Part shown: positions 35,965 to 39,570 of the stretch, in pieces
How positions within the stretch are numbered: position 1 is the stretch's first letter
How the letters are laid out: every line of letters starts with the position of its first letter
NCBI GenBank assembly: GCA_025201705.1
Contig: MU616816.1
Coordinates: 1-39,570 of the forward strand
Length of the DNA: 39,570 nt
Direction of reading: 5' to 3'
Source: Dissophora ornata
Lineage: Eukaryota; Mortierellomycota; Mortierellomycetes; Mortierellales; Mortierellaceae
Program-made: the position numbers and the translations under genes
Notes under the pieces: generated by a model
The model's database searches: none
Told to the model about the DNA's origin: nothing
The model's input: only the letters and a program-made list of their open reading frames with translations

Positions 35965-37793
35965 ATGGTTAATATCGTCTCTACCCTCATCCTCTCATTG
36001 ACAACTATCCTCGCCCTTACCAGTGATGTATTTGCACAGAACAATGATTGTATCCTTCAGCTGCCAAAGAATCCTCTTACAGCTCAAGGTCTTGCCACTC
36101 CATTTATCCTCAAAAAGGGTAACTGCGACCAAACCAATCCAAACCAACAGGTCTTTGTTGAAGCAACTGTCTTTGACCCTGACACCAAGACGTTTGGTGT
36201 ATACCATCCTCTTGTGATCAATGAAGGTAATATAATTGGGAATATAGGTATTTTCTGCATCGCGCACTGCTTGTGGACATATGACTGTCAGAGTCGCGTC
36301 TCGGTCGTTGTAATGAGGAGGACCTAGGCTAGACACGTGTTTTACTTTGTGTCGTGCGAATTTTTGTACTCGGAGTGTGATAAATACTAAGCTTTATTTC
36401 ATTATTGTCATACCCCAGGTACACAACCCGCGATCAAGCCCGTCGCACCCACCTTGCCCCGGAACGCTGTGGTCGGTTTATGGTTCGGAGCCAATGCCAA
36501 CTCAATCACTCTGGCTGGCGACACCCAGAGCTGCATGAATGGATTGTCCAACAACGATGCCTTTGGTCAAGTTCCCTTATGTAACTCCGCCGCCTTCTTC
36601 AGTGCTGTTCATGCTGCTGATGGAGGTCAAGGTGCCGTTATCCCACCTGTCGGTAACGATAAGATGGGTAAACCTTGCCCTACAACTCCCTTCCTTGGTG
36701 CCATTGATCAAGAATCAAGCGATAACGTCATTGCAACATATCTTCAGACCAACAAGGGTCAATTCGCTCAGGCCACAAAGGCTAATCGAAATACTCTTAA
36801 GCAGTTCATCGAGATCTCCAATGGACCTGACAATGCTTTCTTGGATCCTGTAAGTTAAAAACAACCAAACTCTCTATTCAACGCTCGCCTTGCAAATGTC
36901 TTTGTCATTCCTTGGAATTTTATTAACGCGCTATTTTTTTCTATTGTTGTTGCTGCTGCTGTTGCTGTTATTGTGGATAGGCGCTTGGATGCACTCCATT
37001 GCAAGCTTCATCGATGATGGAACAAGATGTCATGCTTAGCTCTATGGCTTTGAATGAGCTTCAAGCGTCTAAGCAACAAGCCCCTGCCACTCCAGTTCCA
37101 AAAACCGACCCCATGGTCCTCTCCAACAACCATCCCAACTTGGACAGCGTGAATGCCTACCATCAAGGTGGTGGGAAGGGCGGGAAGGGTGGGAAGGGTG
37201 GAAAGGGTGACAATGGTGGAAAGGATGATATGGCATGCAATTATGCTTCCCCCTCGGGCGCGATCGACAGTGCCATCTGGAACACCAAGTGGGGGCCGCT
37301 AACCGCGGCTGACCGTGAGCTGGTGCGCAAGGTTCGACTAGCCAGCCTCTGGGAGATGCCAATGGCGCAGGAGGCGACGACGCGGGCGAAGAGCGCCAAG
37401 GTACGGCAGATCAGCGTCGCAATCGACGCGCAGCACTTGTTCTTGGACTCGGCAGTGCGTGCCGTCGGGCAGCAGCTGGGTGTCAAGCTGCCCACCGAGC
37501 CGATCACGGTGCAAAAGTGCTGGATAAACGATATCCAGAGCCAGTCGGGCCGCGACTACGACGTCACCTACGTAAAGTGGCTGCGTTTCGCACACGGGCA
37601 GATCTTTGAGCTCATCGGAACGGTCCGCGGCACCACGCAAAACACCGTGATGCGCTCGTTCGCCGACACCGCCAACATGTTTGTGCTCGGGCACATGCAG
37701 ATGATGGAGAGCACTGGCCTCACCGGGAGCTCATCGTTCCCGATCGCACCGCCCATCACACTGGCGGCGCCCGCTGCCACCCCGACGCACTAA
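35965..37793 (+). CDS. Secreted fungal protein fused to a bacterial-type DUF4142 domain, three exons
   Basis: Exons are 35965-36226, 36419-36849 and 36981-37793, giving 501 residues with all phases fitting. A signal peptide (VSTLILSLTTILALTSDVFA) opens the protein. Residues ~25-300 are a fungal secreted module of unknown function with Cys pairs (DDC-like NNDC, GNCD, QSC, LCNS, KPC, LGC) and moderate GC. A Gly/Lys minisatellite linker (37170-37223) follows. Residues ~325-485 match the bacterial DUF4142 pattern: WGPLTAADRELVRKVRLASLWEMP, AQHLFLDSAVRAVGQQLGV, then RFAHGQIFELIGTVR and RSFADTANMFVLGHM (each quoted in part). DUF4142 is a helical domain common in actinobacteria and proteobacteria, with no established activity. 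GC rises from about 52% (37201-37260) to 65-68% (37381-37500) by my count, and stays at 65% for 37801-37860 after the stop. I infer that a bacterial segment was captured by a fungal secreted gene. Confidence 0.87.
37170..37223 (+). repeat. Six 9-bp units encoding a Gly/Lys linker
   Basis: Six 9-bp units of the form GGTGGGAAG, with small changes, encode GGK repeats (one unit reads GDN). They lie in exon 3 about 35 bp before the start of the GC-rich DUF4142 segment, so they mark the linker between the fungal and bacterial-type modules. Confidence 0.95.
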
Positions 37794-37860
37794 CCACCAC
37801 GACGCGCTAATCGTCCTGGCGGTGGCGGGTCAGCTTGTTGATCGTGCCACGGCCCCTGAT
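37245..37860. other. GC-rich segment of probable bacterial origin
   Basis: Compositional change begins near 37245 inside exon 3, just after the ATGCAATTATGC stretch. It continues through the DUF4142 coding part and about 65 nt of downstream sequence, and ends abruptly near 37857, where ATGTATATAC begins. Counted GC is 65% (37381-37440), 68% (37441-37500), 65% (37801-37860) and 48% (37861-37920). It contains no intron. Confidence 0.75.
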
Positions 37861-38190: not shown

Positions 38191-38934
38191 CTAATCCCAC
38201 TGGCTCATGGGTCCACTCTTCCCATTCTTCTCAATCATCTCCTCAAACCCATCAATCCTACTGACCATCGCATACGGCTTAAGTTTCTTCTCCTCCTCCA
38301 CCGTCGCTTTGAAACACCCACACCACCCCTTCCTGGGATACTCCTCACAAACTCCCTCAATCGTCCCCCTGTCAACAAGCTCTACCCCCGCCCCAATGTT
38401 ATCCAACAACGTCCCCCAATGGATCAACCTCGTCAACAAACTAATGCTCCCAATGGGCTGGACATCCTGATGACGGATAATCGCTTCTGCAATACTCTCC
38501 GCTTGATCCTTCTCCGCGACGCCCTTACCCCCACCACTGACTTTGACATCCTGCAGTAAGTCCAGGGCGTGATAGCCTGCCCAGAACTCATACGAGAGAC
38601 GAGTACTCGAGATGTGCTCAGGTGTAGTCCCGATGTCGTGCAACATGGCTGTGCAGAACCATGTTTCGTCCAAGGCGCTGCCGGGGGTGAGGGCGAAGGA
38701 GGGGTAGCATTCGCGGGCGATGGCGCAGCCGTAGCTGTAGACGCGCAGTGAATGTCTATAAGTGTCTTCGGGCAACTTGGACTTGCAGTACGAGTCGATG
38801 CGAGTTGCCAGCGGAGTAGTTGGAGGCTTCAGGGCAGAGATCGGGACTCTTTTGGGGGAGGAGTTCTCGGGTTTGTCCTTTTCCTGGTCGGCGGGGCGGG
38901 CGGTGAGACCGTATTTGGAAGTGTTGTCGGCCAT
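38191..38934 (-). CDS. HD-domain protein, cyanamide hydratase-like (DDI2/DDI3 family)
   Basis: This intronless frame encodes 247 residues, close to the yeast Ddi2/3 proteins (225). Cyanamide hydratases are metal-dependent HD-domain enzymes that convert cyanamide to urea. The metal ligands of an HD domain are visible: H61 in YRHSLRVYSYG, H99-D100 in AMLHDIGTT, H155 in IIRHQD and D178 in GTLLDNIGAG. The first ~40 residues are polar and probably disordered. The ATG at 38934 is the only good start. The substrate is inferred from family resemblance: related HD proteins include isocyanide hydratase-like and other small hydrolases, so detoxification of a nitrile-type compound is the safest description. 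The gene points toward the chimeric DUF4142 gene and ends about 400 nt from it. Confidence 0.87.
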   Translation of the reverse strand: MADNTSKYGLTARPADQEKDKPENSSPKRVPISALKPPTTPLATRIDSYCKSKLPEDTYRHSLRVYSYGCAIARECYPSFALTPGSALDETWFCTAMLHDIGTTPEHISSTRLSYEFWAGYHALDLLQDVKVSGGGKGVAEKDQAESIAEAIIRHQDVQPIGSISLLTRLIHWGTLLDNIGAGVELVDRGTIEGVCEEYPRKGWCGCFKATVEEEKKLKPYAMVSRIDGFEEMIEKNGKSGPMSQWD

Positions 38935-39570
38935 GGTTGAAGACGCTGATTGAATGTGACGATGTGCTGCTGTAGAATTTCAAATTGAAGCTGATTAGGG
39001 CGAATGGAAGGTTGGTGACAAGGATGTAGCAAGGGACAGGAGGTATTTATTCACATTTGTCTGAGAAGCGCAGTCAAGTTTGACGCAGAACAAGTAAATT
39101 GACAGCGGGAACGCCAAACGAGATGCGCTGCGCAGGAGCAAAAATACAATTTGTAATATACCCGGTTTCTGCTCCCGCATCCTTCCTGTGCGTCATCGCT
39201 GCTGGCACAGAGTTTGAACCCCCACTTGGCAAGTCCTCGCGTTGGTGCTGTAATTGCGCGCCAAGTTTCAGTGCGCGACTGTGCTCCTCTGACCTCATGG
39301 CTGTCTGGACTCTGGACTCTCTGCACACTTGCAGAGAAAAACTTATGCGCGCCCTGTCCATGGAGATCTGTTATGTCCACAAGGCTCGTACGTCTTAACG
39401 TCGGTCGTAGACACCTAGGATGTGCGCCTCAAGTTGGAGACCTCATGCCGCTTTTTTTTCTCTTTCTCTTTCTTTTCTAAACGAACCCACTCGACCTGTT
39501 TTCAAGGCTCTCTCTCTCTCCCTTTCTAAGTCGGCGCTTGGACCTCCTTTCAGCCTTTCGGCCTTTTCAG
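38935..39570. other. Right-edge spacer
   Basis: No supportable gene. The last ~110 bases are C/T-rich on the plus strand (CTCTCTCTCTCCC), like the leaders that precede other plus-strand genes here, so a plus-strand gene may begin just beyond the window. Confidence 0.5.

Follow-up and report, generated by a model that had tools for sequence, protein, structure and literature searches.

Chimeric gene of Dissophora ornata

Does a single gene of the fungus Dissophora ornata (Mortierellaceae) export a bacterial domain, or have two unrelated pieces of DNA been joined by mistake? The question is raised by positions 35965 to 37793 of contig MU616816.1 (assembly GCA_025201705.1, forward strand), of which positions 1 to 39,570, here called the window, were analysed. 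An earlier note had proposed an interkingdom chimera at this place, in which a fungal secreted module is followed by a bacterial-type DUF4142 domain. The chimera is genuine and is neither a misassembly nor a recent event: the gene encodes one in-phase protein in three exons, its DUF4142 domain scores above the Pfam cut-off and the same join is present in relatives. It is an in-frame fusion of a resident fungal secreted-protein gene with a bacterial DUF4142 domain, whose actinobacterial ancestry was borne out by both database matches and trees. We consider it somewhat more probable than otherwise that one actinobacterial DUF4142 domain was acquired and joined to a copy of the secreted module, and that the product, for which export is predicted, likely binds metal outside the cell.

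The exons at 35965-36226, 36419-36849 and 36981-37793 (plus strand) read into a single protein of 501 residues, and both introns (192 nt and 131 nt) have GT-AG borders. The genome comprises 31.4 Mb in 968 contigs, and the contig that carries the gene is C255. Residues 1-24 resemble a signal peptide when judged by eye, with a hydrophobic start and VFA as the putative cleavage end, and most homologs retain a similar start. The sole domain reported by Pfam is DUF4142 (PF13628), scoring 46 bits where the cut-off is 27 and spanning residues 341-474 and profile positions 2-136 of 138. No second DUF4142 match was found in the 31.4 Mb genome. The features of the locus are as follows.

35965-36226, plus strand: exon 1; start of the module, preceded by a putative signal peptide recognised by eye at 35965-36036 (residues 1-24)
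36227-36418, plus strand: intron 1, 192 nt, GT-AG, after LVINEG; position matched by eye in two paralogs on contig C356
36419-36849, plus strand: exon 2, middle of the secreted module
36850-36980, plus strand: intron 2, 131 nt, GT-AG, between FLDP and ALGC; position matched by eye in three paralogs
36981-37169, plus strand: first part of exon 3, where the shared module core ends (through NAYHQG, from the alignment)
37170-37224, plus strand: Gly-Lys linker, a 9-nt tandem repeat in 6.1 copies; relatives have a KR/RR site in the linker
37236-37238, plus strand: Cys317 in the linker, predicted to pair with Cys411, which is seen in fungal rows only
37245-37860, plus strand: high-GC tract, 63.6 % up to the stop codon and 65.7 % in the following 67 nt
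37308-37709, plus strand: DUF4142 (PF13628, by Pfam), residues 341-474, predicted ferritin-like four-helix bundle (fold from homolog P0001)
37353-37355, plus strand: E356, helix 1, candidate metal ligand (conservation)
37434-37448, plus strand: H383 and D387 (HxxxD), helix 2, candidate metal ligands (conservation)
37518-37520, plus strand: Cys411, gained in the fungal clade (21/22 fungal, 0/106 bacterial rows)
37593-37595, plus strand: H436, helix 3, candidate metal ligand (conservation)
37692-37709, plus strand: H469 and E474 (HxxxxE), helix 4, candidate metal ligands (conservation; helix places from P0001)
37777-37810, plus strand: 17-bp direct (tandem) duplication spanning the stop codon

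The same fusion in related Mortierellaceae

A homology search with the full protein gave 772 matches, of which the best 120 were listed. Among these, 14 proteins (P0001-P0013 and P0025, 45-66 % identity) contain both the module and DUF4142; 13 of them come from named Mortierella, Podila, Entomortierella and Linnemannia records and one is metagenomic. The fusion, which the earlier note had proposed to look for in relatives, is thus not a one-off. As the same join occurs in related Mortierellaceae, a misassembly private to D. ornata is ruled out, and the number of fusions together with their single fungal clade (see below) makes the event older than several genera. A profile search built on seven fusions recovered 50 proteins, and all those marked with PF13628 belong to Mortierellaceae or to unnamed metagenomes.

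Some copies deviate from the common architecture. The protein of Gryganskiella cystojenkinii (P0014) leaves the DUF4142 sequence after 94 domain residues and looks broken or mis-modelled, judging by its sequence. The gene models of Actinomortierella (P0056 and P0240) begin well within the module. In Dissophora P0121 there is no module, and a short spacer separates the signal peptide from DUF4142. Metagenomic proteins P0004, P0123, P0125, P0129, P0130 and P0132 are fungal-type DUF4142 fusions or fragments; two of them, P0004 and P0125, bear the label 'predicted outer membrane protein' and are likely fungal genes with a bacterial name.

Base composition

The DUF4142 part is a genuine compositional outlier, more than expected by chance. 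The guanine-cytosine (GC) content of 37245-37793 is 63.6 %, compared with 51.1 % at the start of exon 3, 43.5 % in exon 1 and 50.6 % in exon 2, and its GC content at third codon positions (GC3) is 0.836. As a control we sampled 20 contigs of this genome, 200 kb in total. None of 2866 overlapping N-free windows of 549 nt reached 63.6 % (maximum 60.5 %), and none of the 97 open frames (183 aa upwards, shadow frames included) reached the GC3 value (maximum 0.711); the best 183-codon stretch in the sample had a GC3 of 0.760. The high GC extends about 67 nt beyond the stop codon. The contrast described in the earlier note therefore stands, although its figure of 65-68 % is too high for the segment as a whole. 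The same note named, as refuting its own proposal, a tree that places this copy within an ancient fungal clade of normal composition: the clade is indeed old, but the composition is still abnormal in D. ornata. Given the age of the clade, the foreign composition cannot date the transfer.

Origin of the DUF4142 domain

The nearest non-fungal domains belong to metagenomic proteins with a lipobox recognised by eye (P0122, P0124, P0126 and P0128; 65-70 % identity), and next come Streptosporangiaceae, Nonomuraea among them, with roughly 54-64 %. All 20 fungal rows of a 52-row tree fall into a single clade (support 100/98) beside actinobacterial lipoproteins. For this tree 11 of 62 database rows were dropped for motif or length (P0014, P0130, P0132 and eight bacterial ones) and D. 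ornata was added. A second tree with more outgroups again gave a single clade for its 12 fungal rows (99/98), with the D. ornata domain inside. A loosely defined lipobox-like start was present in 103 of 113 bacterial DUF4142 rows. Six actinobacterial genomes, chosen as carriers, have 4-11 DUF4142 matches each, versus one in D. ornata, and the family is present in 4 of 14 well-known control genomes. The bacterial outgroups, together with copy number and distribution, indicate transfer from bacteria to the fungus. Most likely, as far as sequence comparison can tell, the domain was acquired once, long ago, by an ancestor of Mortierellaceae from an actinobacterium.

The secreted module

Stand-alone modules of about 400 residues are numerous in Mortierellaceae. 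The D. ornata genome has three further copies, one on contig C157 and two on C356, the latter two within about 4 kb of each other. Compared by eye and through frame changes, both C356 copies match both intron positions; in the C157 copy, which runs off its contig, intron 2 was matched, but of intron 1 just the 3′ end, likewise by eye. In a quick tree the fusion modules form a single clade, which also holds one metagenomic fragment, within the stand-alone modules of Mortierellaceae (Shimodaira-Hasegawa-like approximate likelihood ratio support 99). Since the fused modules group together, as do the fungal DUF4142 domains, both halves agree with a single fusion event.

The module was called fungal in the earlier note. 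That holds for the genome in which it resides, for its intron positions and for its closest relatives, but the module is not exclusive to fungi. It is common to Mortierellaceae, the chytrid Physocladia, Xylographa, Kitasatospora, Ktedonobacteraceae and Micromonosporaceae, and the relatives from Kitasatospora and Ktedonobacteraceae are 44-49 % identical to it among the best 120 matches. DUF4142 was marked on no bacterial module protein among those matches, and no module was found within 27 bacterial DUF4142 loci of about 8 kb. In the genomes behind these loci, 3 of 27 had a module match anywhere, strong in Dactylosporangium and Planosporangium and weak in the third. As neither a bacterial protein among these matches nor any of these loci was found to combine both parts, a single transfer into or beside a duplicated resident module gene is the reading that we draw. 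The structure predicted for the stand-alone module P0015 is confident, with a predicted local distance difference test (pLDDT) score of 89, and matched no fold in the PDB. Four JGI metagenome proteins (P0019, P0021, P0028 and P0035; 834-856 residues) have two tandem modules and cluster with bacterial modules in the tree; the tail of P0019 is hydrophobic and, by eye, resembles a glycosylphosphatidylinositol anchor signal.

The join, its linker and the cysteines

In Entomortierella beljakovae (P0006) a full module is followed by VKR-DGHL and then by DUF4142. According to the alignment, the module of the D. ornata, Podila and Linnemannia copies ends near NAYRxG or its equivalent, which, compared with the full-module model, means that its C-terminal helical part is gone and the DUF4142 bundle stands in its place. 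Among relatives with a complete linker, all 21 have KR or RR in it (P0121, without a module, and the fragment P0125 are not counted). The motif [KR]R[SDE]x[HR] is present in 19 of these 21 fusions versus none of 33 stand-alone modules, only three of which have KR or RR within their last 60 residues. Kex2 proteases cleave at KR or RR between a carrier and the mature part of a protein, and the dibasic pair of the relatives is a candidate site of this type. Matches to the P_proprotein domain, which is a domain of kexin-type proteases, were identified on contig C442 of the D. ornata genome.

A cysteine at position 411 is found in 21 of 22 fungal rows and in no bacterial row out of 106. Most fungal members have exactly one more cysteine, in the linker, and two linker cysteines are found in P0001, where Cys411 is missing; the cysteine counts of P0025 and P0056 are two and two, and P0125 is a fragment without the linker. 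The natural reading is a predicted Cys317-Cys411 disulfide that would form in the secretory pathway.

Fold and candidate ligands

For the fold we relied on the model of homolog P0001, not of the D. ornata protein. The model has long helices at 329-355, 359-386, 410-438 and 442-464, with a short helix (396-406) within the long crossover between helices 2 and 3, and pLDDT exceeds 90 across 321-470. Four long helices and a long 2-3 crossover are the layout of a ferritin-like four-helix bundle, and we predict this fold for the DUF4142 domain.

Conservation was scored on 22 fungal rows and on the 106 bacterial rows that remained after 7 of 113 had been dropped. Rows from unnamed metagenomes were treated as bacterial unless they had a fungal linker or, for P0125, a fungal-type domain sequence. 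E356, H383, H436, H469 and E474 are invariant in all 22 fungal and all 106 bacterial rows, and D387 is conserved in 22/22 and 101/106, respectively. Out of 74 columns conserved in bacteria, 63 have an unchanged majority residue in fungi, and 38 of the 74 are fixed throughout the 22 fungal rows; the six candidate ligands are among these 38. Inspection by eye of six further actinobacterial members showed the E/H/H residues in each of them, and the fourth His in all four whose stretch reaches it. In the P0001 model, the first Glu and the His residues of helices 2 and 3 lie mid-helix.

Proposed history and function

The history that would fit these results begins with one horizontal transfer and a fusion into a duplicated resident secreted-protein gene. 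From that gene the domain would have obtained a fungal signal peptide, replacing the lipoprotein signal of its bacterial ancestor, and the new cysteine pair may be an adaptation to the secretory pathway. In most relatives the domain would be released by Kex2-type cleavage at KR/RR after the module; in the D. ornata copy the site would have been lost and the domain tethered. The E-HxxxD-H-HxxxxE set could bind a transition metal, copper or iron being likeliest, and the bundle might work like an extracellular metal buffer of the CopM type. Extracellular metal binding by a ferritin-like bundle, suggested here from the model, would be a more specific role than the interaction with bacteria guessed in the earlier note. 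The complete scenario, from a bacterial lipoprotein domain to a secreted ferritin-like metal binder by way of a duplicated module, a Kex2 site and a new disulfide, with a Gly-Lys tether and a two-domain protein in D. ornata, is one that we put forward tentatively.

Several observations weigh against this account. The D. ornata linker contains neither KR nor RR but Gly-Lys repeats, unlike a Kex2 precursor, so its domain would stay attached and the release step does not apply to this copy. Bacterial domains are not free of cysteine, as 32 of 106 rows have it at one other column. The best Foldseek match had an E-value of 2.6e-3 and none reached 0.001. Ferritins, Dps and DUF305 lay within a few Z units of one another in the structure comparison, with rank 50 still at 13.3, so DUF305/CopM is not singled out; helical bundles readily match one another. 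The His of helix 4 lies at 73 % of the helix and the last Glu at 95 %, so the latter may be off-site. Canonical di-iron ferritins have the ligands E / ExxH / E / ExxH. The ExxH pattern is not conserved in DUF4142 rows, and the E-HxxxD-H-HxxxxE set is not that of a canonical di-iron ferritin: position 380, where 92 of 106 bacterial rows have Ala, is Asp in D. ornata, and Val stands three residues before H469. As to the origin, a clade of the ingroup bacteria beside the fungi was not rejected by the approximately unbiased test (p 0.376).

The gene clearly illustrates how a eukaryote can make a bacterial exported domain usable: signal peptide and carrier come from a resident gene, cysteines are gained, and a processing motif accompanies the fusion and is absent from the 33 unfused relatives checked. 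Extracellular metal binding would be a first testable function for a domain found in 4 to 11 copies in some actinobacteria. Moreover, the locus points to an uncharacterised secreted module of actinobacteria, Ktedonobacteraceae and fungi that matches no solved fold.

Alternative explanations

A misassembly, a contamination or an error of the gene model could have joined fungal to bacterial DNA, as the sharp change in composition within exon 3 and the division of the assembly into 968 contigs might suggest; this is in effect refuted by the same join in 13 proteins of other named Mortierellaceae records and by the clustering of the D. ornata domain with fungal copies, not with bacteria. It is also very improbable, and disfavoured, that a bacterium already carrying both parts was the source of the entire gene, with its module. 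Both halves do have actinobacterial relatives, but the lack of a bacterial protein with both parts among the best 120 matches, the absence of the module from the 27 bacterial DUF4142 loci and the near absence from their genomes speak against it, as does the nesting of the fusion modules in Mortierellaceae stand-alone modules with intron positions in common.

Other explanations accept the fusion and differ on what the domain does. With the same origin and export, the product might be a secreted binding or decoy protein, in which a bacterial surface domain contacts actinomycetes or endobacteria and not metal. Most bacterial DUF4142 relatives look like lipoproteins, that is, surface proteins, and the module is also present in actinobacteria and Ktedonobacteraceae, which keeps this explanation in play; we regard it as unlikely because the best-conserved columns include the Glu/His candidates and all six ligands fall among the 38 fixed columns. 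The domain could also be a passenger under weak constraint that is being lost. The truncated domain of P0014 and the Actinomortierella models starting within the module would agree with decay, but the retention of the majority residue at 63 of 74 conserved columns, with 38 fixed in 22/22, makes it improbable. Metal binding outside the cell by a domain acquired once remains the reading that we prefer.

Comparison with known systems

The closest systems are DUF4142 lipoproteins of Streptosporangiales (e.g. Nonomuraea) and the uncultured P0122-P0133, which contain the same domain at full length with about 54-70 % identity, share the E/H/H/H/E set and have a similar C-terminal SFPxxPP tail. The bacterial proteins examined are single-domain and mostly start with a lipobox-like sequence, whereas the D. 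ornata protein has a putative eukaryotic-type signal peptide and the module before the domain, and its Cys411 lies at a column where none of the 106 bacterial rows has Cys. The likeness to CopM of Synechocystis, an exported copper-binding DUF305 protein, would be in the predicted fold alone; no DUF305 profile match was found for the D. ornata protein, DUF4142 alone being reported at E-values up to 1.

MllJ, from the methylolanthanin (lanthanophore) locus of Methylorubrum extorquens, is described as a ferritin-like DUF4142 protein putatively exported to the periplasm (PMC11317620). It is likened to the D. ornata domain by this description; it is bacterial, and its function is itself inferred in the part of that source consulted here. 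In early diverging fungi, fusions after transfer were reported for 100 of 829 xenologs (PMC11291939). The D. ornata gene belongs with such fused xenologs, with a domain of bacterial phylogeny that is joined to a resident gene and was passed on within related fungi. The main text of that report does not mention DUF4142, and our case adds a conserved dibasic site (in the relatives) and new cysteines. Mortierellaceae also acquired a bacterial gene for InaZ-type ice-nucleation proteins, the product of which is cell-free; these belong to another family, and the abstract mentions no fusion to a resident secreted module (PMC12978214). Among the open-licence papers searched, none names both 'Mortierella' and 'DUF4142'.

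Downstream of the gene, positions 38191-38979 on the minus strand hold an open frame without a stop codon, which we take, from an HD-type motif seen by eye, to resemble an HD-domain enzyme of the cyanamide hydratase type.
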